Shown here piece after piece: positions 3,110-52,361 of a DNA stretch of 64,000 nucleotides (position 1 is its first letter; each line of letters starts with the position of its first letter). The stretch comes from Gammaproteobacteria bacterium (lineage in GTDB: Bacteria; Pseudomonadota; Gammaproteobacteria; Thiohalomonadales; Thiohalomonadaceae). The notes under the pieces were generated by a model. The model ran no database searches. It was not told the DNA's origin and saw nothing but the letters and a program-made list of their open reading frames with translations. The stretch covers positions 1-64,000 of the forward strand of contig JANJXC010000104.1 of NCBI GenBank assembly GCA_024709225.1, given 5' to 3'. The position numbers and the translations under genes are program-made.

Positions 3110-5869
3110 CTACCTACCGGTCTGCCGGATGGGCAACCAGACCCGGAACCGGGTACCGCGCCCCGGCTCGCTGTCCACCTCGATGCGCCCGCCGTGTTTT
3201 TGCACGATGCCATAGGACAGCGACAGGCCGAGCCCGGTGCCCTTGCCCACCGGCTTGGTGGTGAAGAAGGGTTCGAAGATGCGCTTGAGATGTTCCGGTG
3301 CGATGCCGGAACCGTTGTCTTCCACTTCGACCCAGACGTGGTCCTGCTCCTGCCCGGTGCGCACGGTGATGATGCCTTGCCGCTCCATGGCGTGCGCGGC
3401 GTTGACCAGGAGGTTCATGAACACCTGGTTGAGCTGCGAGGGCACGCATTCCACCTCCGGCAGCTCACCGTACTCGCGCACCACGTCGGCCTTGTACTTC
3501 AGTTCGTTGTGCACGATGTTGAGCGTGCTTTCCAGCCCCTGGTGCAGATCGGCCAGCTGCCAGTCCGCCTGTTCCTGGCGCGAGAAATCCTTGAGGTCCT
3601 GCACGATCTGCTTCACGCGCTTGATGCCCTCGCCCGACTCTCCGAGCAGGGCGCAGATATCCTCGCGCAGGTAGCCTATGTCGAGTTCCTGCTTGAGGGC
3701 ATTGATCCGCTCCAGCGCCGCGGCGTCGGCCAGGGCGGGCTCCGCCTTCATGTAGGCATCGAGCAGGGTGAACAGCCCCTGCAGATAGCGTCCCAGGCTG
3801 TTGATATTGGAACTGACATAACCCATCGGGTTGTTGATCTCATGGGCCACGCCGGCGGCCAGCTGGCCGATGGAGGCCAGCTTGTCGGACTGTCGCAACT
3901 GCTCGTCCATGCGGTGGCGCTCGGTGACATCCTTGGCGGTGCAGACGTAGTGGGTGACGTTACCTGCGGGGTCGCGCAGCGGCGAGATGGTTTCCTCGGC
4001 GTGGAACAGCTCGCCGTCCTTGCGCCGGTTGATGATGGCCGCGTGAAACGATTCGCCGTCGGCGATGGTCTGCCACATCTGCTGATAAAACGCCGCGTCA
4101 TGCAGGCCGGATTTGAGCAGGCCGGTCGTCTTCCCCAGCACCTCCTCCCGGCTGTAGCCGGTAATGCGTTCGAAGGCCGGATTCACATACTCGATGCCCC
4201 CTTGCGGGCTGGTGATGATGACCAGGTCGTCGGCCTGCTCCACCACGCGCAACAGGCGCTGCTTTTCATCCTCCGCCTCCTTGCGCCAGGTAATGTCGCG
4301 GCTGATGCCGCGATAGCCGGCAAACTCCCCGCTGCTATCGAACACCGGCACCCCGTTGGCCTCCATCAACACCACATGGCCATCCTTGTGGAGGGCGGCG
4401 ATTTCAATACCGCGAAAGGGTTCATGGCGCTGCAGCAGCGCGTCGATGACCGGGACCAGCTGCCCCGCCCTGATCGGCGGCAGCAAATCGACCGGCGTCT
4501 TGCCCAACAGCTCCTCCGGGGCGCAACCGAGCATCGCCCGCACCTGCGGGCTGACATAGGTATAACGGCCGGCGTCATCGATCTCCCACAGCAGATCATT
4601 GATGTTTTCCACCAGGCCGCGAAAGCGCTGCATGCTCGCCTGCAGCAGGGCCTCGATCCGCTCCTGCTCCTGCATCTGCGCGCGCAGATTGTTGCGCATG
4701 GACTCGAATGCCGCCGCCACATCCCCCAGTTCGTCCTGATAAAATCCGGTTATCGGCTTGTTCAGGTCGCCGGCGGCGATGGTGTGGGCGGCGCACTGCA
4801 GGCGCAGCAGCGGGCGCAAGCCACGGCGGTGAATGACGTACATCATGGCCAGCATGGTGCTCACCACCAGGGTCGCTGCAATCGTGAGCAGCAGCAGCTC
4901 GCGCCGCACCTGTGCCTTCACCTGCCGGATATCCTCTGCCGCCTTGATGCCCAGCTCCTCCGACAGGCTCATGATGGTGGCGATGGCGGCGGTAGCCGCA
5001 TCGAACCACTGTTCGGCACTCACCGGATAGGCCTGGCCGTGCATGCCGGCGTCATATACCCGCTGCCGCAATGCCTCGAACCGGCCCTGGTATTCCACCC
5101 GGAACGCCTCCCGCGCCGCCGCCACCTTGTCGTCCGGCGGCAGTTGCCGGATCACCGCGTCTGCACGCTGCAAATTGCCGGCGATCACCCCGCGGTAGCC
5201 GAACAGTTCCGCCATTTCATCCTGGGTTAACGGCCGCCCCTGCGCAATCACCCCGACGATCATTGCCCGCTCCCGCCCGGCGAATTCCAGCAGGTTATGT
5301 GCGATCTGTTTTACCAGGGGGTTATCGGTGTAGGGGTGTTCCTCGTCGTCATGAAAGCCCAGCGCAGCGCGGCGCAGCAGGGCCAGCTCGTCGATATACG
5401 CGGTTGTGACCTCGCGCCAGCGCGCAGTGCCGATCGCGTTTCCGTCTCCCTCCCATAGCCGGTCGGCCAGACGGCGCGCCTCCTCCAGGTGCTGCCGGGC
5501 CTGGGGCAGGTTGAGCGCGGCATCCTCCATCCACACCTTGCTCTCCAGTGCCTGCAGTTCCTGCAACTGATGGATCAGCCGCGCATGCAATTCGTCACCC
5601 TGCGCGCGCAACCGGCGCAACTGCGCCAGCTCCTCCGCCGTCCGCTGGGCGCGGGTCAGCAGCAGGGTCGTCCTGCCGCGCTCGATGCCGGCCTGATTGA
5701 TGGCACGCAGCGCCAGGCCGCCCAGGCGGTTGGCCTGCTCGATGCGCTCGGCCTTCTGCAGGCGCGCATAGGCATCGATCACATCCCCGCCTATGGCCAC
5801 CAGGGCGATAAGCACCATCAGGCCCATCAGACTGGTAAGCAAGTGGCGCAGCGTCAGTGTATGCAACAT
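3110..5869 (-). CDS. Membrane multi-PAS sensor histidine kinase
   Basis: A 919-residue kinase, last gene of the signalling operon. Order: TM1 (about 11-28), large periplasmic region (about 35-322), TM2 (about 325-346), HAMP (about 348-400), PAS (about 412-530), PAS (about 540-655), HisKA with GVAHEINNP (His676), and a HATPase with DNGSGIAP, FEPFFTTKP and GKGTGLGLS. The periplasmic part has ERGRTTLLL and GRERAMIVGVIAQGR, reminiscent of nitrate/nitrite-sensing (NIT) domains; that match is weak. There is no receiver domain, so phosphate must go to one of the separate receivers of the operon. It is 41 bp downstream of the receiver-GspE gene. Its HisKA/HATPase module closely resembles the soluble kinase at 8201-9427. 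Confidence 0.88.
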   Translation of the reverse strand: MLHTLTLRHLLTSLMGLMVLIALVAIGGDVIDAYARLQKAERIEQANRLGGLALRAINQAGIERGRTTLLLTRAQRTAEELAQLRRLRAQGDELHARLIHQLQELQALESKVWMEDAALNLPQARQHLEEARRLADRLWEGDGNAIGTARWREVTTAYIDELALLRRAALGFHDDEEHPYTDNPLVKQIAHNLLEFAGRERAMIVGVIAQGRPLTQDEMAELFGYRGVIAGNLQRADAVIRQLPPDDKVAAAREAFRVEYQGRFEALRQRVYDAGMHGQAYPVSAEQWFDAATAAIATIMSLSEELGIKAAEDIRQVKAQVRRELLLLTIAATLVVSTMLAMMYVIHRRGLRPLLRLQCAAHTIAAGDLNKPITGFYQDELGDVAAAFESMRNNLRAQMQEQERIEALLQASMQRFRGLVENINDLLWEIDDAGRYTYVSPQVRAMLGCAPEELLGKTPVDLLPPIRAGQLVPVIDALLQRHEPFRGIEIAALHKDGHVVLMEANGVPVFDSSGEFAGYRGISRDITWRKEAEDEKQRLLRVVEQADDLVIITSPQGGIEYVNPAFERITGYSREEVLGKTTGLLKSGLHDAAFYQQMWQTIADGESFHAAIINRRKDGELFHAEETISPLRDPAGNVTHYVCTAKDVTERHRMDEQLRQSDKLASIGQLAAGVAHEINNPMGYVSSNINSLGRYLQGLFTLLDAYMKAEPALADAAALERINALKQELDIGYLREDICALLGESGEGIKRVKQIVQDLKDFSRQEQADWQLADLHQGLESTLNIVHNELKYKADVVREYGELPEVECVPSQLNQVFMNLLVNAAHAMERQGIITVRTGQEQDHVWVEVEDNGSGIAPEHLKRIFEPFFTTKPVGKGTGLGLSLSYGIVQKHGGRIEVDSEPGRGTRFRVWLPIRQTGR

Positions 5870-5910: not shown

Positions 5911-8151
5911 TCAAACCGGTTCCTGCTGCGGCCCCAGCACCCGCAAGATCTCCGCCATATCGGTGCTGCCGTTACGCACCTTCTCCCAGGCATCCTGCAG
6001 CAGGGAGCGCACTCCCTGCACCCGCGCCGCGCGGTTGATCTCCAGCATGCTGGCCCCGCTGGTCATCAGATGACGCAGCTCGTCGTCGGGCACCAGCACC
6101 TCGAACAGCCCGATGCGACCCTGATAGCCAGAGCCGCCACAATGGCCGCAGCCACGGGCATGAAACACCTCCGGCAGGCGCTCGGCAGCGAACAGCGGCC
6201 CCAGCTTGCGGCTCAGCGCCGGATCGGGCGGCGCCGGCTCGCGGCAATGCGGACACAGGCGGCGCACCAGACGCTGGGCAATGATGCCCTCCAGCGCCGC
6301 GGCCACCACATAGGGCTTCAGCCCGAGATCGAACAGGCGCGCCACCGTGGCCACGGCGGAATTGGTGTGCAGGGTGGAAAACACCAGGTGCCCGGTGAGC
6401 GCCGCATGAAACGCCACCTCGGCGGTGTCGAAATCGCGGATCTCGCCCAGCAGGATCACATCGGGGTCCTGACGCAGGATGGAGCGCAGCACGATGGGAA
6501 AGGTCAGCCCGATCTGCTCACGGATATGCACCTGGCCCGCCATGTCCATGAAAAACTCCACCGGGTCTTCGATGGTCACGTAGTTGCGGCCGGGGTCGGC
6601 ATTGTGTTGCAGCAGCGAATACAGGGTATTGGTCTTGCCGCTGCCGGTGGGGCCGGTGGCCAGGATGATGCCCTGCGGCTTTTCGGTCAGCCGCTGTACC
6701 CGTTCCAGATCGTCGGCGGTAAACCCGAGCGCGCCCAGATCGCTGATGGCGGCGTTGCGGTCCAGCAGCCGCATCACCACCTTCTCGCCGCTGATGGTCG
6801 GCAGGGTGGACAGGCGCAGGTCGACGATGCGCAGCGGCGTCTTCACGGTGATGCGCCCATCCTGCGGCCGGCGCCGTTCGGCAATATCCAGCTCCGCCAT
6901 GATCTTGATGCGCGACACCAGGGAGCTGAAAATCTGATGGGGAATATGCAGCTTGTCCTTGAGGATGCCATCGATGCGGTAGCGCACCACCACACTCTTG
7001 GCGCGCGGCTGGATATGGATGTCGCTGGCCCGCAGGCGCACCGCCTCGAGGATGATGGCGTTGACCAGGCGCACCGCCGGCATCTCTTCGGTCTGGTGCA
7101 GCAACTCCTCCAGCGAGACGTCATCCTCTTCGTCAATGACGATCTCGATGCTTTCGAACGGATCGGTCATGGCGACCAGGGTTTCCATGTCGCCAAACGA
7201 CGGGCCGGAGTCTGCGCCATAGAGGTCGAGGATCTTGCTCTCGATGGCGGCACTGTCCGCCATCACCGTCTCTACCTCCAGGCCGGCGGAAAAGCGCAAA
7301 TCGTCGATCAGGCCGGTATCCATCGGGTCGGCCATCACCAAGGTCAGGCGCTTGCCCTCCAGGCGCAGGGGCAGCACCCAGTTGCGTTCGCAGAAGCTGC
7401 GCGGCAACAGCTCCGCCAGCGCCGGCTCCAGCGTGTGCTCGGCCAGCGCCACCTCCTCGATCAGCAGGTCCTTGCGCAGGATTGCCCGTATCGCCTTTTC
7501 GCTCACCCATTCCCGCGCCAGCAGCAGGCGCAACATCGGCTCCTTGCGCAGCTGGGAAAGTTTGTGCAGCTCCTGCACCTGCTGTTCGTTGAGCATGCCC
7601 TTTTTGTGCAGCATGATGGCAAGCTGGCTGCGATTGGTGACGGCAAGACGGGACAGCGCCTGGATCTCCTGCGACTTCTTGCTGTTTTCCGCCTGCAGCT
7701 GCCGATTGCGGCGGATCAGGTCATGCTGCTCCAGCGCCAGCGCCACCGTCACGCGCAGGTCGTCGTCGTTCCATGGCTTGAGGATGAACTTGTATACCGC
7801 TCCTTCGTTGACGGCACCCATGACCGCGCCGGTATCGGCGTGCCCGGTGAGCATGATGCGTATGGTGTCGGGCCAGGTCTGCTTGAAGCGGCGCAGCAGT
7901 TCGGCGCCGTTCATCTTCGGCATCATATAGTCGGAGATAACCACATCCACCGGTGTTGCGCTGCACAGGCGCAGCGCCTCATCGCCATCGGGCGCGGTCA
8001 GCACCTCATAGTTCTCCTGGCGGAAAACCCGCTGCAAGGCCTTGAGCACATTGGGCTCGTCATCGACGATCAGCAGGCGATAGCGTGCCGGCGCCGCCGG
8101 GTCCGGGGCGGCCGGGCTGTTACCGGTAAAAAACGAGGCGTAACCCGCCAT
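5911..8151 (-). CDS. Receiver domain fused to a GspE/PilB-type secretion ATPase
   Basis: A 746-residue fusion. Residues 24-140 form a complete receiver: DDE at 30-32, phospho-acceptor Asp74 in VVISDYMMP, Thr in LTGHAD, Lys in ILKPW. After a coiled linker (about 140-185), residues about 185-312 resemble the GspE/PilB/MshE N-terminal domain, but the RLGxxL c-di-GMP-type signature is degenerate. Residues 345-746 are a full E-type ATPase with Walker A GPTGSGKT (500-507), Asp box, Walker B ILLGEIRD, His box TGHLVFSTLHTN, and a CPHC/CGHC zinc tetracysteine (633, 636, 668, 671). The ATG at 8151 is preceded by AGGAG; the longer frame has no such site. No other type II secretion or type IV pilus genes are in the window. 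Phosphorylation probably tunes a pilus or secretion motor. Confidence 0.9.
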   Translation of the reverse strand: MAGYASFFTGNSPAAPDPAAPARYRLLIVDDEPNVLKALQRVFRQENYEVLTAPDGDEALRLCSATPVDVVISDYMMPKMNGAELLRRFKQTWPDTIRIMLTGHADTGAVMGAVNEGAVYKFILKPWNDDDLRVTVALALEQHDLIRRNRQLQAENSKKSQEIQALSRLAVTNRSQLAIMLHKKGMLNEQQVQELHKLSQLRKEPMLRLLLAREWVSEKAIRAILRKDLLIEEVALAEHTLEPALAELLPRSFCERNWVLPLRLEGKRLTLVMADPMDTGLIDDLRFSAGLEVETVMADSAAIESKILDLYGADSGPSFGDMETLVAMTDPFESIEIVIDEEDDVSLEELLHQTEEMPAVRLVNAIILEAVRLRASDIHIQPRAKSVVVRYRIDGILKDKLHIPHQIFSSLVSRIKIMAELDIAERRRPQDGRITVKTPLRIVDLRLSTLPTISGEKVVMRLLDRNAAISDLGALGFTADDLERVQRLTEKPQGIILATGPTGSGKTNTLYSLLQHNADPGRNYVTIEDPVEFFMDMAGQVHIREQIGLTFPIVLRSILRQDPDVILLGEIRDFDTAEVAFHAALTGHLVFSTLHTNSAVATVARLFDLGLKPYVVAAALEGIIAQRLVRRLCPHCREPAPPDPALSRKLGPLFAAERLPEVFHARGCGHCGGSGYQGRIGLFEVLVPDDELRHLMTSGASMLEINRAARVQGVRSLLQDAWEKVRNGSTDMAEILRVLGPQQEPV

Positions 8152-8200
8152 GTCGGCTCCTGTTGCGTTGTCCGGTATCTCCCGCGATACCGCCCATGCC

Positions 8201-9427
8201 TCAGCGCAGCGGCAACCACACCGTGAACGTGGTGCCCGCGCCCGGACGACTGTCGACCTCGATGCGCCCGCCATGGGCCCGCACGATGTCGTTGCTCACC
8301 GTGAGGCCCAATCCGGTGCCGCGACCGACCTCCTTGGTGGTAAAGAACGGGTCGAAGATGCGCGGCAAGACCGTGGGCGGAATGCCGCCGCCGTTATCGT
8401 GTACGCGCAGCCGGAGCTGCCCCTGTGCCACGGCCGTTTCGAAGGTCACCACCCCCGGCGGAGTGACGGCATCTGCCGCATTGAGCAACAGATTGAGTAT
8501 CACCTGACCGAGCTGCGCCGCATTGCAGCGCAATGGCGGTACCTCGCCCAGCACGAAGACAGGCGCCAGGCGCCCGCGGATCTGCCCTTCGGCCACATTG
8601 CACACCTGGCGAATGATGGCGTTGATGTCGGCCGCCTCCTCGCCGCCCTGATCGACGCGGGAAAATCCCTTCAGGTCGGCCACGATGCGGGCCACCCGTG
8701 CGGCACCGCTACGGCTCTCGTCGATGAGGTCGCTGAAGTCCTGCAGCACGAACCCCAGGTCGGCGGCGGCCCACGCCTGCTGCACGGCGGCGAGGTCGGG
8801 CGCCGCCGGCAGCTGCTCCGCCCAGTGTCCCAGACGTTGCAGATAGCCCTGTGCCGTATTCAGGTTGCTGGCGATGAAACCGATGGGATTGTTGATCTCG
8901 TGGGCAACCCCGGCCGCCAACTGGCCGACCGAGGCGAGCTTTTCACTCTGGTAGAGCCGCCGCTGTGTCGCCTCGATGGTCTGCACCTGTTCCGCCACGC
9001 GCTGCTCCAGATGCAGCGCCAGCTCGCGGTACCGCGCCTCGGACTCCTGCAGGGCCGCATGGCGGCGCTGCAATTCTGCGTAATCCTCATGCACTGCCTG
9101 CAAGTGCAATTCCGAGGCCATGAGATAGCGGGCGTTTGCGCGCAGGATCCATTGCAGCAGCACCACGGCGGCGGCGGCCTGTGCCTCGGTGGCGTCGCAC
9201 TCCAGATAGCCGATGGGCTCCATCTCGCCGCGCACCGGCAGGCGGACCCCGCCGTGTACCTCGCCCCTGGCCAGCAGCTCGCGGCCGCGCACATCGCTGA
9301 GGCGCAGCCCCGTCCCGAGCAGGGCGACCAGGGCATCCGCCAGCCGCGCACGATCGACCGAACGCAGCAACTCGTCCAGACCCAGTTCGCGATCAAAGCC
9401 GGCGGCGGGGACGGTATCCGGACTCAT
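8201..9427 (-). CDS. Soluble sensor histidine kinase with coiled-coil linker
   Basis: A 408-residue cytoplasmic kinase with no membrane segment. The first about 105 residues are a small sensor-like domain of unknown type, followed by a coiled coil (about 110-160), HisKA with GVAHEINNP (His176), and a HATPase with NLLLNAADAV, DNGGGIPP, FDPFFTTKEVGRGTGLGL and a normal C-terminus. Its start overlaps the stop of the GTPase gene by four bases (ATGA), so the two are translationally coupled. That suggests the GTPase and kinase act together. The N-terminal domain could bind the GTPase or a ligand; neither can be shown here. The GspE-fused receiver lies immediately downstream and is a plausible phosphate target. 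Confidence 0.88.
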   Translation of the reverse strand: MSPDTVPAAGFDRELGLDELLRSVDRARLADALVALLGTGLRLSDVRGRELLARGEVHGGVRLPVRGEMEPIGYLECDATEAQAAAAVVLLQWILRANARYLMASELHLQAVHEDYAELQRRHAALQESEARYRELALHLEQRVAEQVQTIEATQRRLYQSEKLASVGQLAAGVAHEINNPIGFIASNLNTAQGYLQRLGHWAEQLPAAPDLAAVQQAWAAADLGFVLQDFSDLIDESRSGAARVARIVADLKGFSRVDQGGEEAADINAIIRQVCNVAEGQIRGRLAPVFVLGEVPPLRCNAAQLGQVILNLLLNAADAVTPPGVVTFETAVAQGQLRLRVHDNGGGIPPTVLPRIFDPFFTTKEVGRGTGLGLTVSNDIVRAHGGRIEVDSRPGAGTTFTVWLPLR

Positions 9428-10077
9428 GGCGCAAGGCCCGCGGCGGCATCGACGAATGCGGGCCGGGTCAGGCCGTGTACCGCACTCAGCTGCATCTGGC
9501 CATCGATGGCGTCATACACCTGCTCCAGCAGGGCGCGTAACGTCTCCACCACCCCGCAGCCGATGAGTGCCGTGCTGAATACCACCGGCCAGCGTGCCCC
9601 CTGCCAGCGCGCCAGGATCTCTTCCTCGGCGAGCACACCGGGCAGGTCGCGCTTGTTGAACTGCACCACCAGGGGCAGCCGCTCGAAATCCAGTCCGACG
9701 CGGGCGGCATTCTCGGCCAGATTCTCAAAGGCGGCGCCATTGTTCACGCTCTGTGCCCGCTGCGAGTCGGCCACGAACACCACGCCGTCGGCACGCGACA
9801 GCACCGCCTTGCGGGTGCTGTCATGCTGCACCTGACCCGGCACCGTGAACAGCTTGAACTTGATCAGCAGGCCAGACGGAGCGGTGATGCCGAGCGGCAA
9901 CAGATCGAAGAACAAGGTGCGATCATTGTGTGTCTCCAGCGTCATCATCTCACCCTTCATTTCCGGCTGCAGCAGATCGTGCAGCCGCATCAGATTGGTG
10001 GTCTTGCCGCTCTGTGCCGGGCCGTAATACACCAGCTTGATGGTGATGCGTCCGGCCTCGGCCTCATAGTCCGCCAT
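9424..10077 (-). CDS. MglA-like Ras-type small GTPase
   Basis: A 217-residue GTPase. P-loop GPAQSGKTT (19-27), switch-region Thr (TLETHNDRT), DxxG-equivalent TVPGQVQHDSTRKAVLSRAD as in MglA proteins, VVFVADSQ, NKRD (QFNKRDLP) for guanine recognition, and a STALIG segment near the SAK position. MglA proteins set the leading pole and activate type IV pili or gliding motors in Myxococcus and related polarity systems. In this operon it sits between a receiver protein and a kinase: the upstream gene's stop is directly adjacent (TGAATG) and the downstream kinase overlaps by 4 bp. No MglB/roadblock gene, its usual GTPase-activating partner, is visible in the operon. Confidence 0.9.
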   Translation of the reverse strand: MADYEAEAGRITIKLVYYGPAQSGKTTNLMRLHDLLQPEMKGEMMTLETHNDRTLFFDLLPLGITAPSGLLIKFKLFTVPGQVQHDSTRKAVLSRADGVVFVADSQRAQSVNNGAAFENLAENAARVGLDFERLPLVVQFNKRDLPGVLAEEEILARWQGARWPVVFSTALIGCGVVETLRALLEQVYDAIDGQMQLSAVHGLTRPAFVDAAAGLAP

Positions 10078-10608
10078 TCACTCGCCGTCCCCATCCAGCA
10101 GTACCGAGCCGTCGTCACCCCAGCGCACCCGCGCGATCTCGGGATGGGTGCGCTCGAGTTCGCGCAGAGCCGCATCCTGCTGGCTGAGCTGGGTCTGCTG
10201 GCGCCGGACCTGATCGGCGAGGCGTCGATTCTCCACCAGCACGGCACGGTGCTCGAGCGCGCGATCGATGGTGATGCGCAAGTCGTCGGCATCCCACGGC
10301 TTGGGCAGAAAACGATAGATCTCGGCCTGATTCACCGCTGCCAGCAAGGCATGCCAGTCGGTATAGGCACTCAGGATCAGCCGCATGGCATCCGGCTGGA
10401 TGGCCCGAAAGCGGGTCAGAAATTCCACTCCGTCCATGCCCGGCATGCGGTAGTCGGACAACACCAGATCGAAGGTTGCCGTCTGGGCGCGGCGCAACGC
10501 CTCTTCGGCCGTAGCGAATGTTTCGATCGCGTGGCGCGGGGTGGTCAGCAGCCGTTCCAGCGAACGCAATACATTCGGTTCGTCATCCACCAGCATGATG
10601 CGATACAT
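10078..10608 (-). CDS. Response regulator, receiver plus coiled-coil tail
   Basis: A 176-residue protein. The receiver occupies about residues 1-125: DDE at 8-10, phospho-acceptor Asp52 in VLSDYRMPGMDG, Ser/Ala in ILSAYTD, Lys in FLPKPWD. A charged coiled-coil tail (about 125-155) ends in an acidic segment (WGDDGSVLLDGDGE). There is no DNA-binding or enzymatic output domain, so it probably works by protein contact, perhaps with the adjacent GTPase. Its start lies inside the 3' end of the HD-GYP gene (26-bp overlap), and its stop abuts the GTPase start. The Ser in place of the usual Thr after the Ile-Leu pair is a conservative change. Confidence 0.87.
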   Translation of the reverse strand: MYRIMLVDDEPNVLRSLERLLTTPRHAIETFATAEEALRRAQTATFDLVLSDYRMPGMDGVEFLTRFRAIQPDAMRLILSAYTDWHALLAAVNQAEIYRFLPKPWDADDLRITIDRALEHRAVLVENRRLADQVRRQQTQLSQQDAALRELERTHPEIARVRWGDDGSVLLDGDGE

Positions 10609-11932
10609 GGTCCTCTCCCTCCGCCAGAATATGAATCACAAATTCGCTGTGGTCGTCCCGCTCCAGGGCGTTGATCTTGCGCACCAGCGCCTCGGTGAGC
10701 CGATACCCCTTGGTGAGCAGCAGCACGCCATCCTGTCCCAGCAGATCGCGCGACAGCACCATCCCCGGCCGCAGCGCCGGCGGCTCCAGGCGCAACTCGC
10801 GGATCAGACCCTCACCGCGTTCGCGCGCATCGAGCACCGCAACGCAGGCATCCACCACGGCGCCGTCATAGCGCTTGTCGCGCCGCTGTTGCAGGAAACC
10901 GCGGGCATCCAGCGGGCTCAGTTCCTCGCCGAGCAGTGCGCCGCTGCGCAGGCCGTCATAATCGTTGGCCACGGCGACTATGCGCGCGCCGAGCGGGATC
11001 TGTTCGCCGTACAGCCGATCCGGATATCCCTTTCCGTCATAGTGCTCATGGTGGTGGCGGATGAACAAAGCGGTCTTCTGCAAGGGCTCCATGCCCATCA
11101 GGATGGCCTGTCCGGTGATCGGGTGTTTCTCCACCACCTTGCGCTGCGTGGTGTTCAGGTTGGCGGCCGGGATGCGCAACAGCCCGTCCGGCCACGCCAG
11201 CTTGCCGATATCGTGCAGCAGACCGGCGAAATAGATGTGGCGTACGTCGTCCTCTTCCAGCCCGAGATAGGTGGCTATGTCGCGGGCCAGCTCGGCCACC
11301 CGCTTGCCGTGGCCGCCGCCGGGTCCTTCACGCAGCTGCACCAGATTGGCGAATACCGGTATCGCGGCGTAATAACTTTCCTGCAGCTGCTCATAGGCCA
11401 ACTCCAGAAACATATTGGTCTGCCGCAACTCCTCGGTGCGCGCCACCACCTTCTGCTCCAGGGTGGCATTGAGCTCCTTCAGCTCGTCGTTCTGCCGCTG
11501 CGTCAGCGCCAGCAGGCTGTCACGCTCCGCCCGCAGACGCTTCTGCTCCAGGGCGTGCTGCACGGCCAGCTTGATGTCATTGTCTTCCCAGGGCTTGCTG
11601 AAATAGCCGTAGATCTGTCCCTGATTGATCGCCGCGATGGTGGAGGTGAGATCGGCATAGCCGGTCAGCAGGATGCGCACCACCTGCGGCCAGCGCTGCG
11701 CCACCTGGGCCAGGAACTGGGCGCCATCCATCTGCGGCATGCGCATGTCGGAGATGACCAGATCGATGGGCTCCTGTTCCAGGATTGCCAGGCCGCCCGC
11801 CCCGCTCTCCGCGGTGTGCACGGTATAGCCGAGGGGGCGGAACAGACGCCGCAACGAAGCCAGGATATTGGTTTCGTCATCGACCAATAACAGGGTGGCC
11901 GGTGCCGTGCTCACCGCCAGCGGTTCAGTCAT
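10583..11932 (-). CDS. Response regulator with HD-GYP (c-di-GMP phosphodiesterase-type) domain
   Basis: A 449-residue protein of the RpfG type. Receiver about 12-130 (DDE 18-20, Asp62 in VISDMRMPQMDG, Thr in LLTGYAD, Lys in FSKPWED), coiled coil about 130-185, HD-GYP about 190-365 with HGKRV, HDIGK (His240-Asp241), HHHEHYDGKGYPD and a complete GYP, then a C-terminal domain about 375-449 (LRPGMVLSRDLLG ... LLLTKGYRLT). HD-GYP enzymes hydrolyse c-di-GMP, and the metal ligands look intact. An AGGAGAG ribosome site precedes the ATG at 11932, after a 63-bp gap from the HDOD gene. The C-terminal domain resembles the separate 100-residue protein encoded at 12817-13119. Likely ties receiver phosphorylation to c-di-GMP level. 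Confidence 0.9.
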   Translation of the reverse strand: MTEPLAVSTAPATLLLVDDETNILASLRRLFRPLGYTVHTAESGAGGLAILEQEPIDLVISDMRMPQMDGAQFLAQVAQRWPQVVRILLTGYADLTSTIAAINQGQIYGYFSKPWEDNDIKLAVQHALEQKRLRAERDSLLALTQRQNDELKELNATLEQKVVARTEELRQTNMFLELAYEQLQESYYAAIPVFANLVQLREGPGGGHGKRVAELARDIATYLGLEEDDVRHIYFAGLLHDIGKLAWPDGLLRIPAANLNTTQRKVVEKHPITGQAILMGMEPLQKTALFIRHHHEHYDGKGYPDRLYGEQIPLGARIVAVANDYDGLRSGALLGEELSPLDARGFLQQRRDKRYDGAVVDACVAVLDARERGEGLIRELRLEPPALRPGMVLSRDLLGQDGVLLLTKGYRLTEALVRKINALERDDHSEFVIHILAEGEDHVSHHAGG

Positions 11933-11995
11933 GCCTGCTCTCCTCTTTTGCCGCCCGCCGCATCAGCTTGGCACATGGCGCCGCATTGATCTGCA

Positions 11996-12817
11996 TCAGA
12001 ACTCAAGCCGCGCCGCGGCGGCGGCCTCCCGCTCCATCTCCGGCAACAGCGCTTCCAGCTGCCGCCAGCTCAGGCCGAGCCGCGCCCAGGCCTCCGGCTG
12101 CAGCGGCGGGATCTGCGCGCCGGCGGCATGGCCCAAGGCATGGGCCAGGACATCGGCCAGATGCACGATATCACCGAGGCGATCGCCGCCGGGATGGTGA
12201 TGCCGCCCCACCGCCAGCACCAGCGCCTCGGGAAAATGCCACTTGCGCGCCAGCCGTTCGCCCACGGTGCCGTGCTCGCAGCCCAGCACGGTCTGCTCGG
12301 CCGCCAGCAGCAACCCAGCGTCGGCGGCATGCCGTTGCAGTACCTGGCGGTATTCATCGGGAAAATACGCCGCCAGGGCCAGCTTGCCCAGGTCGTGCAA
12401 CAGGCCGGCGGTGAAGGCCTGCTCGGCATCATCGCCCAGCAACACCGCCAGCCGCGCAGCGATGCTGCCGGTAACCAGGGCATGGCGCCACAGCCGCGGC
12501 GCATCCAGCAGGTGAACATCCGGTTGCAGCTGCTGCATCACCGCCACGGCGAGAACCACCTGGCGCACGGTACGGCTTCCCAGCAGCATGCAGGCCTCAC
12601 GCAGGCTGCCGATGCGGCCGGAAAAACCGAAGAATGAGGAGTTGGCCAGACGCAGCACGCGCCCCGCCAGGGCCGGCTCATGCGCAATCAAACGCTCCAC
12701 CGCGCCGATGTCCACGGCAGCGGCCTCCAGCATGGACAGCAACTGGCCGGTCACCGGCGCCAATGCCGGCAATTCGCCTAGGCGTGCATCCAGTGTGGCG
12801 GTGGAGAGGAGCGGCAT
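11996..12817 (-). CDS. HDOD-domain signalling protein
   Basis: A 273-residue protein dominated by an HDOD domain (about 15-215): LPALAPVTGQLLSML, LANSSFFG, RTVRQVVLAVAVMQ, GLLHDLGKLAL, then HHHPGGDRLGDIVHLADVLAHALG. HDOD domains are HD-superfamily folds, usually without enzymatic activity, found in signalling and motility operons as protein or nucleotide-binding modules. The ATG at 12817 overlaps the preceding stop as TGATG; a GTG one codon upstream is possible. It is followed by the largest gap inside the operon (63 bp), which carries the HD-GYP ribosome site but no clear terminator. Confidence 0.87.
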   Translation of the reverse strand: MPLLSTATLDARLGELPALAPVTGQLLSMLEAAAVDIGAVERLIAHEPALAGRVLRLANSSFFGFSGRIGSLREACMLLGSRTVRQVVLAVAVMQQLQPDVHLLDAPRLWRHALVTGSIAARLAVLLGDDAEQAFTAGLLHDLGKLALAAYFPDEYRQVLQRHAADAGLLLAAEQTVLGCEHGTVGERLARKWHFPEALVLAVGRHHHPGGDRLGDIVHLADVLAHALGHAAGAQIPPLQPEAWARLGLSWRQLEALLPEMEREAAAAARLEF

Positions 12818-13119
12818 CACGAACTCAGCCCCCGATAACGCTGTATGAGCTGCAACAGCTCCTCCATGAGCGGCTGGCCGCGGACACTGGAAAACTGCAT
12901 CTGCAGCTGCGCTGCCAGTGCCGCACGCTGGGCGGCGGTCAGCGTCTCCTCCACCATCACCGGCAGCGCAGTCACGCCGCGCCGCGCCAGTTGTTGCAGC
13001 GCCCGTTCGCTGATCACGCTGCCGGCCCCCAGCAACAGGTCACCACGGGCGTCCATCACATCCAGCGCCACCCGGGCACCGACGCTCACCTGCTCCAGCG
13101 CCTGTTCCTCCACGCGCAT
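12817..13119 (-). CDS. Small stand-alone domain resembling the C-terminus of the HD-GYP regulator
   Basis: A 100-residue protein starting MRVEEQALEQVSVG. The core VGARVALDVMDARGDLLLGAGSV followed by a LxxLxxRGVTALPV segment resembles the C-terminal domain of the HD-GYP protein in the same operon (MVLSRDLLGQDGVLLLTKGYRLTEALVRKI). A short helical tail follows (LMEELLQLIQRYRG). I chose ATG 13119 because it forms a TGATG overlap with the upstream stop and makes the same kind of junction with the HDOD gene; the longer upstream frame only reads another gene in the wrong frame. Function unknown. It may bind the same partner as the HD-GYP tail and compete with it. Confidence 0.7.
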   Translation of the reverse strand: MRVEEQALEQVSVGARVALDVMDARGDLLLGAGSVISERALQQLARRGVTALPVMVEETLTAAQRAALAAQLQMQFSSVRGQPLMEELLQLIQRYRGLSS

Positions 13120-13949
13120 CACGCCGGCCCTCCGTCCGGCACCAGCACCAGCACGTTGCCGGCGGCCACGGTAGCGCCCTCCAGGCGCTCGCAATGCACG
13201 CGCAGGGGTACACTGTCCGCGGTCAGACGTATCTTCATGTCGGCGATCGCCGGTGGGGCATCCGGGGCGTGCCTGCACAGCGCCTGCAACGGCTCGGGCA
13301 GGCTGTTGCGATCCTTCCCCAACAGCGTCCCCATGGCCTGCCCGAGCAGGAGGTGCGCGCGGCCGTTGGCCACGGCAATGAGGCCGTCGTCCCCCACGCC
13401 GAGCACGCCCACCGGCAGATGTTCCAGCACCTCGCGCGACAGCTCCAGCATGCGGTGGTGCAGGGCAAGTTCGTGCCCCTGCGTGGCGATCGTGCGCGCC
13501 AGGCCGGCATTGGCCTGGGCGAGCTGCGTATTGACCTCGCCCAGCTCCCGGGCCAGATGGTCGCGCTCGGCGCGCAACTCGTACTGCTCGAAGGCCTGAC
13601 GCACATTCTCACGCAGCAGGTCGTCCTCCCAGGGTTTGGTGAGAAACTTGTATATGGCGCCGCGATTGATCGCATCGGTCACCGATTCCAGCTCGGTATA
13701 GCCCGACAGCATGATGCGGATGGTGTCGGGCCGCTTGTCCTTGGCCTGTTCCAGGAACGCCGAGCCCTTCATGCCCGGCATGCGCTGATCGGAGATGATG
13801 ACGCCGACGGGATGCTCATCCAGCAACGCCAGTCCCTCGGCACCGCTGCCGGCGGTAATGATGGTGTAACCGTCGCGGCGCAGCAGACGCACCAGCGCAC
13901 GCAGGATATTTTCCTCATCGTCCACCAGCAGCAAGGTGCGTTCAGCCAT
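13119..13949 (-). CDS. Response regulator with C-terminal PAS-like domain
   Basis: A 276-residue protein. Receiver about 1-125 (DDEEN, Asp54 in VIISDQRMPGMKG, Ser in MLSGYTE, Lys in FLTKPWED), coiled coil about 125-170, then a PAS-like domain (EVLEHLPVGVLGVGDDGLIAVANGRA) and a terminal beta-rich stretch. No kinase, DNA-binding or cyclase domain is present, so output must be through protein or ligand binding. The start is 8 bp inside the 3' end of the HTH-receiver gene, and the stop overlaps the next ATG by one base, so it is coupled on both sides. The FLTKPWED segment matches FSKPWED and ILKPWND in the neighbours, suggesting these receivers arose by duplication. Confidence 0.85.
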   Translation of the reverse strand: MAERTLLLVDDEENILRALVRLLRRDGYTIITAGSGAEGLALLDEHPVGVIISDQRMPGMKGSAFLEQAKDKRPDTIRIMLSGYTELESVTDAINRGAIYKFLTKPWEDDLLRENVRQAFEQYELRAERDHLARELGEVNTQLAQANAGLARTIATQGHELALHHRMLELSREVLEHLPVGVLGVGDDGLIAVANGRAHLLLGQAMGTLLGKDRNSLPEPLQALCRHAPDAPPAIADMKIRLTADSVPLRVHCERLEGATVAAGNVLVLVPDGGPA

Positions 13950-14538
13950 GCCTCACCTCCCCCGTGTACCCGGCGGCATCCGCCAGTGCGGTGACCTTCT
14001 GTATCAGCGCCTCCTGCTCGAACGGCTTTTCCAGGATGTCGTCCGCCCCGGCGGCCTGCGCCCGGAGCAGTTCGGCCTGCGGCAGCGCCGAGACCACCAG
14101 GACGCGCACCGCGTTGAACTCCGCCCGGCTGCGGATGAAGCGCAGCACCTCATGGCCGTCCATGCCCGGCATCTTCAAATCCAGCGTCATCACCGCGGGG
14201 GCGAAGGACTGCAACAGCACCCCGGCCTGCAGGCCATCCAGCGCCACCTGGATCTCGAATCCGGCATGACGCAGGACCCGCTGCATCGACTGCGCCATCA
14301 GCCGGTCGTCGTCGACCACCAGGACGCGCCGCGCGGTCTGCTGGAACTCGCTGGGGACCGGCATGTTGTTGGCCTTGAGAAAGGCCAGCAGCTCGCTTTG
14401 CAGCACCCGGTTGTCACCGCGCCGGCCCGGCAGCTTGAAGGCCTTGAGCCGCCCCTGCTCTATCCAGCGCAGCACGGTGCGCAGGTGGACACCGCAGTAC
14501 CGCCCCACCTCACCGGTCGTTAAGGTCTTCTCCACCAT
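13942..14538 (-). CDS. Excisionase/BldC-like HTH fused to a C-terminal receiver domain
   Basis: A 198-residue protein and the first gene of the signalling operon. Residues 5-60 are a MerR/excisionase-type winged helix (TTGEVGRYCGVHLRTVLRWIEQGRLKAFK, then a wing LPGRRGDNRV). Residues 70-190 are a receiver (DDD at 76-78, Asp120 in MTLDLKMPGMDG, Ser in VVSALPQ, Lys in LEKPFEQ). HTH before receiver is the reverse of ordinary response regulators. It is the only DNA-binding output in the operon and probably the operon's own regulator, because a phased direct-repeat array overlaps the promoter just upstream. Start: ATG 14538 with AGGTGG upstream; the longer frame begins at a TTG without support. Confidence 0.88.
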   Translation of the reverse strand: MVEKTLTTGEVGRYCGVHLRTVLRWIEQGRLKAFKLPGRRGDNRVLQSELLAFLKANNMPVPSEFQQTARRVLVVDDDRLMAQSMQRVLRHAGFEIQVALDGLQAGVLLQSFAPAVMTLDLKMPGMDGHEVLRFIRSRAEFNAVRVLVVSALPQAELLRAQAAGADDILEKPFEQEALIQKVTALADAAGYTGEVRHG

Positions 14539-14848: not shown

Positions 14849-16429
14849 ATGAAAAAGAACTTCCCCATCACCGGTAACGAAGTAAGTTTTGCCGACAGCG
14901 CCAACATCCTCTCCACCACCGATCTCAAGGGCGCGATTACCTACGTCAATGACGATTTCATCGCCATCAGCGGCTTCACCCTCGATGAGCTGATGCACAA
15001 GAACCACAACGTGGTGCGCCATCCCGAGATGCCGCCGGCCGCCTTCGAGGAACTGTGGAGCACGGTCAAGAGCGGCCGCTCCTGGATGGGCATGGTGAAG
15101 AACCGCTGCAAGAATGGTGACCACTACTGGGTCAGCGCCTATGTCACGCCGATCCTGCAAAATGGCCAGGTGGTGGAATATCAGTCGGTACGCACCAAAC
15201 CCAAGCGCGAACTGGTCCAAAAGGCGGAAAAACTCTACGCCGAACTGATGGCGGGGCGTACGCCGCTGGCGCTGCGCCTGCCGCGTATCGGTATCAAGAG
15301 CAAGGTATTCGGTGCCATGGCCATCGGCGTCGGCACCGGTCTGGCCGCCGCCGCCTTCACTGGGCTGACGCTGGCCGGCGCCGCCCTCATCGGCGGCGTG
15401 ACGCTGGCGGTGGGCGGACTGCTCGGCATGGCCCTGCTCTCCCCCCTGTGCCGCGTCGTGGCCCACGCCCGCACCATCGCCAACAATCCGGTGGGACAGC
15501 TGCTCTACACCGAGCGCATGGACGAGGCCGGCGAGCTCATGTTTGCCATGAAGATGCTGGAGGCCGAGGCCAGCGCCGTGGTGGGACGCATTGCCGATGC
15601 CTCGCTGCAACTCTCCGGCACCGCCGACAATCTGGTGGCCGCGGTCGAGCACAGCAGTGTCGGCATCCGCCAGCAGCAGGGCGAGACCGATCAGGTGGCC
15701 ACGGCGATCACCGAGATGGCGGCCAGCGTACAGGAGGTGGCGCGCAACGCGCAGAATACCGCCGATGCCGCCGACAAGGCCGATGCCGAGGCGCGCGCCG
15801 GCCGCCAGGTGGTGGCCGACACCAGCAGCGCCATCGGCCGCCTGGCCGCGGAGGTGGAAAAGGCCTCCGGCGTGATCCAGCAACTGGAGGCGCACAGCAG
15901 CGAGATCACCTCCGTGCTCGACGTGATCCGCGGTATTGCCGAACAGACCAACCTGCTGGCGCTCAACGCGGCCATCGAGGCCGCCCGCGCCGGCGAACAG
16001 GGCCGTGGCTTTGCCGTGGTGGCCGACGAGGTGCGCACCCTGGCCTCACGCACCCAGCAGTCGACCCAGGAGATCCGCGCCATGATCGAAAAGCTGCAGG
16101 AGGGCGCCCGCTCGGCAGTGAAGGTGATGGGTCTGAGTCGTGAACAGGCAGACAACAGTGTCGAGCAGGCGCGTCACGCCGCCGATTCGCTGGAAAGCAT
16201 CACCCGCAGCGTTCGGGTCATCACCGACATGAGCGCGCAGATCGCCACCGCCGTGGAGGAACAGAGCGCGGTCGGCGAGGAGATCAACCGCAACATCATC
16301 TCCATCCGCCACATCTCCGATGCCAATGCCCACACCGGGGCGGAAAGCGAACAGGCGGCGCAGAACGTGGCTCACCTGGCCTTGAGCCTGCGCAATCTGG
16401 CAGCACAGTTCTGGGCCAAGCGGCGCTGA
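14849..16429 (+). CDS. Aer-type PAS methyl-accepting chemotaxis protein
   Basis: A 526-residue receptor. An N-terminal cytoplasmic PAS domain of the Aer type (about 10-130: [44 protein letters not shown]) is followed by a hydrophobic anchor (about 150-195) with no periplasmic domain, then a full signalling domain with the hairpin-tip sequence [26 protein letters not shown]. Aer proteins bind FAD and sense internal redox or energy state for aerotaxis. The conserved PAS features are present, but FAD binding is inferred. It is divergently transcribed from the 10-gene signalling operon and has its own sigma-28-type promoter. Confidence 0.93.
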
Positions 16430-18497: not shown

Positions 18498-19388
18498 TCA
18501 CGCGCACAGCGCGCGCGCCACCGCATGGGCCAGGTCGACCGGCACGAACTTGGTCAGCACGTCATTGGCGCCGGCCTTTTGCGCCTTTTCCGTATTGATG
18601 GCGCCGTTCAGCGAGGTGTGCAGCAATACATACAGATGTTGCAGGGCGGGGTCGTTGCGGATCTCCCGCGTCAGGGTGTAACCATCCATCTCCGGCATCT
18701 CGATGTCGGACAGCACCATATCCACCAGGCGCTCATCACGCGCCAGCACCTTCAGCGCCTCCAGTGCCTCCTTGCCGTCACGCACCATCACGCATTCCAA
18801 GCCCAGCGGTTCCAAGGTATGGGAGGTCTGATGACGGGCCACCACCGAGTCGTCCACCACCATCACGCGGCGCCCCTGCAACTGCGCCCGCTCGCCCTCG
18901 GCCAGCTGCACCTCACCCGAGGCCTCGACCGGCTCGATGACCTCGCCGATGACCTTTTCCACATCCAGGATCTGCACCAGGTCGCCATCCACATCGGTGA
19001 CTCCGGTGATATAGCTGCCGAAACCGGTTCCCACCGGCGGCGGCAACACCTTTTTCCAGTCGCAGTGCACGATGCGGTCCACCTTGTTCACCAGAAAGCC
19101 CTGCATGCTGCGGTTGAACTCGGTGATGATGATCGAGCCGTTGCACTCGCCCTGCTGCTGCAGTTGGCCGCGGCCGATGGCGCGGGCCAGTTCGATCACC
19201 GTCACCGGCGCGCCGCGCAGGTGGGCAACCCCCTTCACCGCCGCGCGGGCCTGGGGCAGATGGGTCAGGCTGGGGCAGGGGATGATCTCCTTGACCTTGA
19301 GCACGTTGATGCCGAAGCGCTGTCTGCCGCCCAGATCGAACAGCAGCAACTCCAGGCGGTCATCGGATGCGTGTAATTGCTTTGCCAT
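18498..19388 (-). CDS. cheV: Chemotaxis protein CheV (CheW-receiver fusion)
   Basis: A 296-residue protein. The CheW-like domain spans about residues 10-160 (RFGINVLKVKEII, AHLRGAPVTVIELARAI, GFLVNKVDRIVHCDW, ITGVTDVDGDLVQILDVEK), and the receiver about 173-296 (VVDDSVVARHQ, Asp in VLSDIEMPEMDGYTL, Lys in LTKFVPVDL). CheV couples receptors to CheA and may act as a phosphate sink in adaptation. Cotranscribed with cheW 20 bp upstream. CheA and the other chemotaxis core genes are not in the window. Confidence 0.94.
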   Translation of the reverse strand: MAKQLHASDDRLELLLFDLGGRQRFGINVLKVKEIIPCPSLTHLPQARAAVKGVAHLRGAPVTVIELARAIGRGQLQQQGECNGSIIITEFNRSMQGFLVNKVDRIVHCDWKKVLPPPVGTGFGSYITGVTDVDGDLVQILDVEKVIGEVIEPVEASGEVQLAEGERAQLQGRRVMVVDDSVVARHQTSHTLEPLGLECVMVRDGKEALEALKVLARDERLVDMVLSDIEMPEMDGYTLTREIRNDPALQHLYVLLHTSLNGAINTEKAQKAGANDVLTKFVPVDLAHAVARALCA

Positions 19389-19408
19389 GCTGCCTCCCTA
19401 CCGCCTGC

Positions 19409-19885
19409 TCAGAAGCTGGCCAGCTCGGACAATTCCTCATCGGACAGCAGCTTGCTGGCATCCACCAGGATCAGCAGGCCCTCCTTGCGATTGGACAGGC
19501 CGGAGATGAAACGGGCCGAATCGCCGGCACCGGTGTCGGGCGCAGATTCGATCTCCGAGGCACGCAGCTCGGCCACCTCGCAGACGCTGTCCACCAGGAA
19601 ACCGACGGCATGGTCGCCGGCCTCCAGGATCAGGATGCGGGACGCATCGTCCATCTCGTGCGCCGGCAGACCAAACCGGCTGCGGGTATCGATGATGCTG
19701 ACCACATTGCCGCGCAGGTTGATGATGCCGAGCACATAGGTCGGCGCACCGGGCACCGGGGAAATCTCCGTGCCGCGCAGCACTTCGCGCACCTGCATGA
19801 CATCGATGCCGTAGGTCTCGCTGCCCAGGCGGAAGGTAACCCAGCGCGACACCGCCTCACTACGCGATTTCATTTCCTGAGCCAT
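19409..19885 (-). CDS. cheW: Chemotaxis coupling protein CheW
   Basis: A 158-residue CheW with the expected elements: WVTFRLGSETYGIDVMQVREVLRG, PVPGAPTYVLGIINLRGNVVSIIDTRSRFG, VGFLVDSVCEVAEL, FISGLSNRKEGLLILVDASKLL. It links chemoreceptors to the kinase CheA. GGAGGAG precedes the ATG. It forms an operon with cheV downstream. The C-terminus is acidic (SDEELSELASF), as in many CheW proteins. Confidence 0.94.
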   Translation of the reverse strand: MAQEMKSRSEAVSRWVTFRLGSETYGIDVMQVREVLRGTEISPVPGAPTYVLGIINLRGNVVSIIDTRSRFGLPAHEMDDASRILILEAGDHAVGFLVDSVCEVAELRASEIESAPDTGAGDSARFISGLSNRKEGLLILVDASKLLSDEELSELASF

Positions 19886-20167: not shown

Positions 20168-20893
20168 TTAGCCGGTCTGCTCCCCATCCTCAGCCTGCCA
20201 CAGACATTTGCCGCCGCTGGCCTTGTCGATGGCCTGCAGACGCTGCTCGTGGGCCGCCTGTTCGTCGGCGCTGGCGCGCACCACGCGCAGCGGCGGCCGG
20301 CCACTGAGACGGCGGATGGCCTCGGGTGCGGCGGCGCTACCGGCGGCATGGCTGCCGCCCAGCGACAGCGTGGTCTGGCCGCCGGTCATGGCCAGATAGA
20401 CATCGGCCAGGATCTCGGCGTCGAGCAGGGCGCCGTGCAGTTCGCGGTGGGCGTTGTCGATGCCGTAGCGCTTGCACAGCGCGTCCAGGTTGTTCTTCTG
20501 TCCCGGATGCAGCTGGCGCGCCATGGCCAGGGTATCGAGCACGCTGCAATGTTTGTCGATGCGGCCCCAGTCGCCTTCCAGCCGCTTCAGTTCATGGTTG
20601 AGAAAACCAACGTCGAAGGGGGAGTTGTGGATGATCAGCTCGGCGCCGCTGACGAAGTCGAGGAAGTCGCGCGCCACATCGGCAAAGCGCGGCTTGTCGG
20701 CCAGCATTTCGTTGCTGATGCCGTGCACCTCCATGGCCCCGGGGTCGATCTCGCGGTCCGGCTGCAGGTACTGGTGGTAGGTGTTGCCGGTGAGGCGGCG
20801 GTTGACCAGTTCGACACAGCCGATTTCAATGATGCGGTGGCCGTCGCCCGGCTCCAGGCCGGTGGTTTCCGTATCGAGTACGATCTGGCGCAT
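20168..20893 (-). CDS. dnaQ: DNA polymerase III epsilon subunit (3'-5' exonuclease)
   Basis: A 241-residue DnaQ. Exo I DTETTGLEPGDGHRIIEIG at the N-terminus, Exo II NSPFDVGFLNHE, and Exo III HGALLDAEILADVY with the catalytic His. These are the DEDDh residues that bind two metal ions for proofreading. The C-terminal tail (SGRPPLRVVRASADEQAAHEQRLQ...) is the region that contacts the polymerase alpha subunit. Start ATG 20893 overlaps the rnhA stop by one base (TGATG), the usual rnhA-dnaQ arrangement in gammaproteobacteria, here on the same strand. Confidence 0.96.
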   Translation of the reverse strand: MRQIVLDTETTGLEPGDGHRIIEIGCVELVNRRLTGNTYHQYLQPDREIDPGAMEVHGISNEMLADKPRFADVARDFLDFVSGAELIIHNSPFDVGFLNHELKRLEGDWGRIDKHCSVLDTLAMARQLHPGQKNNLDALCKRYGIDNAHRELHGALLDAEILADVYLAMTGGQTTLSLGGSHAAGSAAAPEAIRRLSGRPPLRVVRASADEQAAHEQRLQAIDKASGGKCLWQAEDGEQTG

Positions 20894-51564: not shown

Positions 51565-52361
51565 ATTATTACGCCGGTATCGACATCGGCTCCACCGCCA
51601 TCAAGGCCGCGGTGGTCGACGAGGACGGCAGGCTGGTCGGCACGCGCATCGCCCCCACCGGCAGCTCGTTCCACAAGAACGCCATGGAAACCTTCGAGGC
51701 GCTGCTGGCGCAGCACGGCATCGCGCGCGATACGGTGAGGTTCATTACCGCCACCGGTTATGGCCGCAAGCTGTTCAAGGAGGCGGACGACTCCATCAGC
51801 GAGATCACCGCCAATGCCACCGGTGCACACGAGGCCGGCAAGGCCTTCGGCGGTGTACGCACCATCATCAATATCGGCGGTCAGGACTCCAAGGCGATCC
51901 AGATCGATATCCACGGCAACGTCAGCAACTTCGCCATGAACGACAAGTGCGCCGCCGGTACCGGGCGCTTCCTCGATGTGGCGGCGCGCAATCTGGAAAT
52001 CGACCTGGAGGAGTTGGGCGATTACCACTTCGGCGGCAGCGGCGCGCCGCTGACCATCAACAGCACCTGCGCGGTATTCGCCGAATCGGAGATCATCGGC
52101 CTGCTGGCCAAGGGCCATGGCAAGGAGGAGATCGTGGCCGGCATCCACTACTCCATCGCCCGCCGCACCGTGCGCCTGGCCAAGCGTGTCGGCATTGAGG
52201 ACCGCGTCTATTTCGACGGCGGTCCGGCGCTGAACAAAGGCCTGGTGGCCGCCATTCAGGACGAACTGGGACGCGAACTGGTGATCCCGGAACAGCCGCA
52301 GACCACCACCGCCTTCGGCGCGGCGATCCTGGCGCGCAGTCAGTACCTCGCAGAAGCGTGA
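51561..52361 (+). CDS. BadF/HgdC-type activator ATPase of the double-cubane protein
   Basis: A 266-residue ASKHA-fold ATPase. Phosphate loops AGIDIGSTAIKAAVVD and IINIGGQDSKAIQ; the cluster cysteines Cys130 (NDKCAAGTGRFLDV) and Cys170 (STCAVFAESEI) bind one [4Fe-4S] across the homodimer; adenosine motif FDGGPALNKG. It resembles HgdC, BadG and E. coli YjiL. ATP hydrolysis drives an electron onto the partner double-cubane cluster. Overlap with the partner gene (ATGA) and with the next gene (TGATG) shows strict coupling. Confidence 0.92.
   Translation: MNYYAGIDIGSTAIKAAVVDEDGRLVGTRIAPTGSSFHKNAMETFEALLAQHGIARDTVRFITATGYGRKLFKEADDSISEITANATGAHEAGKAFGGVRTIINIGGQDSKAIQIDIHGNVSNFAMNDKCAAGTGRFLDVAARNLEIDLEELGDYHFGGSGAPLTINSTCAVFAESEIIGLLAKGHGKEEIVAGIHYSIARRTVRLAKRVGIEDRVYFDGGPALNKGLVAAIQDELGRELVIPEQPQTTTAFGAAILARSQYLAEA

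Follow-up and report, generated by a model that had tools for sequence, protein, structure and literature searches.

A conserved GTPase, histidine kinase and receiver-fused ATPase within a gammaproteobacterial signalling operon: a possible phospho-gated motor of the type IV pilus type

The window analysed here is a stretch of 64,000 nucleotides (contig JANJXC010000104.1) from a gammaproteobacterial genome of 2.9 Mb in 110 contigs, and its minus strand carries ten genes, mostly for signalling proteins, spanning 14556 to 3110. Judged by its distribution over related loci, the conserved unit in this operon is three genes with satellites, not ten: a small GTPase of the MglA family, a soluble histidine kinase, and a motor ATPase that begins with a receiver (REC) domain. 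Control of type IV pilus motors is known to act through partners (FimX/PilZ, cyclic AMP, MglA-type polarity proteins) or through binding of cyclic di-GMP (c-di-GMP) to the MshEN domain. The trio may encode a conserved, phospho-gated accessory motor of the type IV pilus type that is placed or licensed by an MglB-independent GTPase resembling MglA and SofG, a reading to which we give about an even chance. If it is true, the motor is itself a response regulator, fixed beside a Ras-like GTPase and a kinase, and its phosphorylation switches a filament machine directly. The core genes and their domains are as follows.

9424..10077, minus strand: core gene 1, a small GTPase of the MglA family (Group 1-like), from matches to MglA structures and motif conservation
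8201..9427, minus strand: core gene 2, a soluble histidine kinase whose N-terminal domain is unclassified, directly after the GTPase
9038..9427, minus strand: N-terminal domain of this kinase (alpha, four strands, long helix; model pLDDT, the predicted local distance difference test score, 92), candidate GTPase-contacting domain
5911..8151, minus strand: REC-MshEN-T2SSE motor ATPase, core gene 3, from Pfam, ortholog alignment, start codon and its own clade
7744..8073, minus strand: receiver domain of the ATPase (D71, D72, D115, T143 and K166, numbered from a start at 8274)
7210..7662, minus strand: MshEN region of the ATPase with a degenerate c-di-GMP motif (RLG to QLA; second copy lost)
5941..7095, minus strand: T2SSE ATPase domain with intact Walker A and B, Asp box, His box and two zinc-type Cys pairs

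The conserved trio

Orthologs of the ATPase were initially found in four relatives as complete genes and in a fifth as a gene cut off where the contig stops; in all five the same GTPase and kinase adjoin it. The GTPase alignment was then used to fetch the closest 80 named loci (GTPase similarity of 62% or more); roughly 400 more distant GTPase relatives lie outside this survey. A kinase with the same N-terminal domain follows the GTPase in 79 of the 80 loci, the contig of the exception ending 26 bp past the GTPase, and wherever the contig runs far enough (69 of 69 loci) the REC-ATPase is next in order; the other 11 contigs mostly stop inside the ATPase gene. In a sample of 369 genomes of the class, a full-length GTPase occurs in seven and the ATPase in the same seven, and an eighth genome lacks the ATPase and matches the GTPase more weakly, over 138 residues. 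Being adjacent in every testable locus and shared by the same 7 of 369 genomes, the genes are associated beyond chance. Orthologous operons without the GTPase and the ATPase, which the first-pass annotation had named as evidence against its view of the operon, did not turn up: the 80 loci hold the GTPase by construction, and the testable ones all hold the ATPase. Carriers of the trio belong to the Beta-, Gamma- and Deltaproteobacteria, together with one metagenome-assembled genome (MAG) of the Acidobacteriota; those with names include Aromatoleum, Janthinobacterium, Methylomonas and Noviherbaspirillum, and the relatives of the window in the locus set include HGW-Gammaproteobacteria-1, a Chromatiales MAG and an Ectothiorhodospiraceae MAG.

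The remaining genes are less constant. The REC-HD-GYP gene is present in 55 of 71 testable loci; the HDOD gene, the receiver with a tail, ORF3 and extra kinases are common yet variable across the 80 loci; the helix-turn-helix (HTH)-REC gene and the NIT-type membrane kinase are rarer, and the kinase genes near the core vary. Since the satellites differ between loci, the whole ten-gene operon was rejected as the conserved unit. No description of the module was found in the open literature, subscription papers and preprints lying outside that search.

The GTPase matches the Myxococcus xanthus MglA structure with an E value of 1e-52 and a further set of MglA structures (3t12 and related) with 2e-49, other GTPases reaching about 1e-5 at best. 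Its G1 motif, R53 in G2, T-PGQ in G3 and NKxD are kept in 81 of 81 sequences (R53, T54, T78, P80, G81 and Q82 in every one), and V79 is invariant in six orthologs. It thus has both the Arg next to the Thr of G2 and the TVPGQ in G3 by which Group 1 MglA proteins are recognised (Wuichet and Sogaard-Andersen 2014, PMC4316618). Group 1 is described there as having no conserved gene neighbourhood, and its member SofG positions PilB and PilT with no help from MglB (PMC4316618). Coupling to MglB is typical for MglA and is not required; no Roadblock match was found among the ten operon proteins, and no Roadblock/MglB protein (PF03259) scores above the cut-off in 19 of 26 carrier genomes. Because of this absence, the GTPase of the module is taken, on genome content, usually to work without MglB.

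In the core kinase, which has HisKA and HATPase domains and a predicted structure of pLDDT 91.5, H176, E177, N179 and the kinase motifs are invariant in 52 aligned rows, and the phospho-accepting His sits in HEIN(N/T). Its N-terminal domain has no sequence match in the PDB and no consistent match in Pfam (one of 47 members matches DUF6402 at 8e-4), and a fold search gave a weak likeness to CodY GAF/HbpS with an E value of 0.02 at best. Neither the fold search nor the PDB and Pfam searches supported its candidacy as a Roadblock domain.

The ATPase appears, by its conserved residues, to be a working motor with a functional receiver. All 74 of 74 orthologs share the five phosphorylation residues of the receiver (D, D, D, T, K). 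Both Walker motifs (A and B), the His box and the four cysteines are kept in 72-73 of 74, the gaps coming from truncated rows only, and the Asp box is invariant save for one D/E position. Its PDB relatives are PilB, GspE and PilF. Nevertheless, it reaches the cut-off of no family model: 539.2 against 675.65 for PilB (TIGR02538), 545.9 against 630.25 for GspE (TIGR02533), and 454.6 against 850 for TfpB (NF053534), so that its likeness to TfpB is one of functional analogy. In the ATPase tree it forms its own clade with a support of 100/100, apart from the PilB, GspE and MshE of the same genome. As to its start, an ATG at 8151 follows AGGAG and matches the starts of the orthologs; a start at 8274 was rejected as an over-extension. 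The gene therefore most likely does not overlap the kinase gene, from which a gap of 49 bp separates it.

The MshEN region between these two domains is degenerate. The motif for c-di-GMP has been given as RLGxx(L/V/I)(L/V/I)xxG..., present twice, and proteins with REC-MshEN architecture were noted in the same work (PMC5013675). In the first motif of the ATPase, R is replaced by Q in 67 of 74 orthologs and G by A in 57 of 74, and the second copy is unrecognisable, so that two 24-residue motifs of the type RLGxx...Q are not present; the MshE of the same genome retains RIG and KLG. Replacing the Gly of the first motif is reported to abolish c-di-GMP binding, yet perfect conservation of the motif is possibly unnecessary for binding (PMC5013675), and for these two reasons loss of binding by this MshEN region is put forward as a prediction.

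The partner machine and the proposed switch

No homologue of PilC, PilT, GspF, MshG or GspD was found within the fetched flanks of the 80 loci, and the only two pilin-like open reading frames near the module both lie in one locus (L040). In the genome of the window, the genes for PilB-PilC, GspD/E/F, MshE/G and PilT/PilU are all elsewhere, as judged by context and by eye from their translations. The same genome has three further orphan genes for GspE/PilB-like ATPases (L028, L029 and L032), none of them beside a recognised pil or gsp gene. With no machine gene in the neighbourhood, the partner has to be inferred from co-occurrence. PilO of the type IVa pilus (T4aP) is present in 25 of 26 carrier genomes, including all seven carriers of the class sample, and T2SSM of the type II secretion system (T2SS) scores above its cut-off in 14 of 26 and below it in 12. 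As 285 of the 369 genomes of the class (77%) have PilO, this is modest evidence, and the identity of the machine leans towards T4aP over a secretion system. The suggestion of the first-pass annotation that the unit controls a pilus or secretion motor encoded elsewhere is thus borne out as far as location is concerned, and the survey of co-occurring pilus and type II genes that it had called for gives no more than a leaning between machines.

The module might instead drive a T2SS-like or mannose-sensitive haemagglutinin (MSHA) machine, with the phosphorylated REC-ATPase replacing or supplementing GspE or MshE. The near-equal GspE and PilB scores, both below the cut-off, are consistent with this, as are the GspD/E/F and MSHA genes of this genome. 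However, T2SSM falls short of its cut-off in 12 of the 26 carriers, among them five Aromatoleum/Azoarcus genomes without any T2SSM match, PilO is found in 25 of 26, and the ATPase falls outside the GspE clade; we consider this explanation unlikely.

Receiver sequences bear on which proteins the kinases may address. Four of the five receivers carry a KPW segment and the HTH-REC protein carries KPF, contrary to an earlier impression that KPW(E/N/D)D was common to all. Nor does the segment mark local duplication, as had been proposed: in a REC tree, receivers from the same position in the gene order group together even between genera and phyla, so any duplication predates the spread of the operon. 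At the alpha-1 positions that we take, by equation with HK853-RR468, to govern recognition, the four KPW types of receiver mostly have N, I/V, A/S and V/L. These residues being nearly identical, shared phosphodonors among the four receivers are likely.

In the reading of a phospho-gated accessory motor, the core kinase, and probably also satellite kinases (the NIT/PAS membrane kinase, for example), would phosphorylate the receiver of the ATPase; on the same near-identity of recognition residues, they would probably also phosphorylate the stand-alone receiver and the receivers of the HD-GYP and tailed proteins. Phosphorylation would alter the docking of the ATPase on, or its powering of, a platform of the type IV pilus type whose genes lie elsewhere, that of T4aP being the likeliest, and the ATPase would serve next to PilB as an accessory or alternative motor, like TfpB in Acinetobacter. 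Placement or licensing of the ATPase would depend on the GTP state of the MglA-like protein, much as SofG positions PilB/PilT in Myxococcus. Because most carrier genomes lack Roadblock/MglB, the GTPase-activating protein (GAP) or effector is probably inside the module, the candidates being the N-terminal domain of the kinase and the tailed receiver. HD-GYP would tune c-di-GMP in parallel, not through the MshEN region of the ATPase. Each half has a precedent, namely the second extension motor TfpB (PMC8213720) and the action of SofG on PilB/PilT (PMC4316618). That the output is an E-type ATPase bearing a phosphorylatable receiver of its own also agrees with the earlier description of a mostly post-translational control unit. 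Only tentatively may one go further and suppose an undescribed class of pilus-type motor, found in Beta-, Gamma- and Deltaproteobacteria, in which direct gating of the motor through its phosphorylation by a histidine kinase is combined with an MglB-independent GTPase whose GAP or effector is the kinase N-terminal domain or the tailed receiver, the whole being a self-contained switch, by phosphorylation and GTP, for surface filaments.

Several observations weigh against the phospho-gated motor and its GTPase. First, seven of the 26 carriers, this genome included, do encode a Roadblock protein. The sole Roadblock/LC7 match of this genome is on another contig (G000:C107, about 20357-20590; L114 5358-5591), with no homologue of the window GTPase near it; that this protein acts as GAP for the GTPase is neither supported nor excluded. 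Second, the kinase N-terminal domain resembles GAF/profilin-like proteins weakly, and not Roadblock. Third, the pairing of kinase and receiver rests on adjacency and shared recognition residues. Fourth, no pilus or secretion gene is near the module, and 77% of the class has PilO regardless.

The lack of an adjacent pilus gene would also suit an ATPase that builds no filament and serves as a signalling scaffold, its hexamer integrating phosphorylation, GTP state and ATP level and passing the result to the HD-GYP and tail receivers. Many satellites are indeed signalling proteins, and M. xanthus PilB has been reported as a signalling protein (PMC5544727). Nevertheless, the family shows next to no variation in Walker A/B, the His box and the two zinc-type Cys pairs, as expected of a working motor, and a scaffold seems slightly less probable still than a T2SS or MSHA partner. 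A control unit of the MshE type, in which HD-GYP lowers c-di-GMP and the ATPase senses it through a recognisable MshEN domain, is very improbable despite the intact HD-GYP residues of the window copy: the QLA motif, the lost second copy and the effect of the first-motif Gly change (PMC5013675) argue against it, 16 of the 71 testable loci have no HD-GYP gene, and in roughly one relative in five another residue stands in place of the H or D of this protein. Given the degenerate motif and these lost catalytic residues, a c-di-GMP route to the ATPase, which the first-pass annotation had allowed for, is unlikely, and gating through MshEN was rejected as the main route on the motif.

Satellite genes and surroundings

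In transcription order the operon encodes HTH-REC, REC with a tail, ORF3, HDOD, REC-HD-GYP, stand-alone REC, the small GTPase, the soluble histidine kinase, the REC-MshEN-T2SSE ATPase and the NIT-HAMP-PAS-PAS kinase. Counting the ATPase and the HD-GYP protein as receiver proteins, these are five receiver proteins, two histidine kinases, the GTPase, the HDOD protein and one small uncharacterised protein. The junctions, in the same order, are overlaps of 8, 1 and 4 bp, a gap of 63 bp, an overlap of 26 bp, a junction of 0 bp, an overlap of 4 bp, and gaps of 49 and 41 bp. Thus all ten genes of the earlier description lie on one strand with the functions listed for them; the interval given for them (5911-14538) leaves out the tenth (3110-5869). 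Promoter and terminator scans found no more than in shuffles. The genes outside the core, with one motif, are as follows.

13942..14538, minus strand: HTH_17-REC protein (PF12728 and PF00072), peripheral; HTH-REC in few loci
13119..13949, minus strand: REC protein with an uncharacterised tail (PF00072), peripheral; its REC groups with orthologs at the same position
12817..13119, minus strand: ORF3, small protein, peripheral; homologues beside HDOD in many related loci
11996..12820, minus strand: HDOD protein (PF08668, E 9e-53), peripheral; in many loci, not all
10583..11932, minus strand: REC-HD-GYP response regulator of the NosR type (NF053512), frequent satellite
10078..10608, minus strand: stand-alone receiver with a conserved C-terminal tail, frequent satellite; REC residues kept in 44 orthologs
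10093..10143, minus strand: tail motif of this receiver, window copy PEIARVRWGDDGSVLLD, from column counts in the 44 orthologs
3110..5869, minus strand: membrane histidine kinase NIT-HAMP-PAS-PAS-HATPase (PF08376, PF00672, PAS, PF02518), candidate signal input, peripheral

The HTH_17-REC protein is the sole predicted DNA-binding member, as had been supposed, and ORF3 has no match in Pfam or NCBIfam. The tail of the stand-alone receiver has the consensus PGITxVxWxxDG(S)V over the 44 orthologs and is plausible as a docking peptide. A REC-GTPase fusion in one locus (L035) was not used as a natural fusion; its linker differs from the conserved tail and looks like the result of a frameshift. The NIT domain of the membrane kinase hints at a nitrate/nitrite input, in this genome only.

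A divergent gene for a PAS-containing methyl-accepting chemotaxis protein (Aer-like chemoreceptor, 14849-16429) adjoins the operon, and a CheV/CheW-like pair, judged by eye, lies at 18498-19885. Farther along the window, two adjacent plus-strand genes (50284-52361) resemble by eye a 2-hydroxyacyl-CoA dehydratase subunit of the BcrC/HgdB type and its ATP-dependent activator, and a gene for a ferredoxin-type membrane protein (49173-50303, also by eye) adjoins this pair.

Comparison with known systems

The GTPase shares with MglA and SofG of Myxococcus xanthus and Bdellovibrio the Group 1 features and the link to receiver proteins and PilB-type ATPases, and with SofG the lack of MglB as a GAP. 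Unlike in those systems, GTPase, kinase and receiver-fused motor here stand in one cluster, and Roadblock proteins are missing altogether from most carriers. The ATPase has the T2SSE fold and the Walker and zinc-type motifs of PilB, GspE, MshE and TfpB, but differs from them in its N-terminal receiver, degenerate MshEN region, separate clade, scores below the PilB, GspE and TfpB cut-offs, and lack of pilus or gsp genes nearby. Compared with the MshEN ATPases that are c-di-GMP receptors, it has the domain, placed between REC and ATPase, but its c-di-GMP contact residues are not conserved.

Among the satellites, the HD-GYP protein scores 552.7 bits against the cut-off of 400 of the NosR family (NF053512) and so resembles NosR in NosPKR. 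Its HD and GYP catalytic residues are intact in the window copy, unlike those of Burkholderia pseudomallei NosR, which are degenerate, and none of the proteins of the operon was seen to match a NosP-type protein. The actinobacterial conservons, made of kinase, Roadblock, CvnC and MglA-type GTPase, likewise unite a histidine kinase and an MglA-type GTPase in one cluster. However, the module has neither Roadblock nor CvnC (the latter judged solely by the lack of a matching gene), its GTPase bears the Group 1 instead of the Group 2 signature, and its output is a receiver-fused motor. The trio therefore suggests a pilus-type machine that would be switched by chemical modification of its motor and not by a change in gene expression, and its carriers Aromatoleum, Janthinobacterium, Methylomonas and Noviherbaspirillum would be tractable strains for the question, raised by SofG, of how MglA-type GTPases act without MglB.

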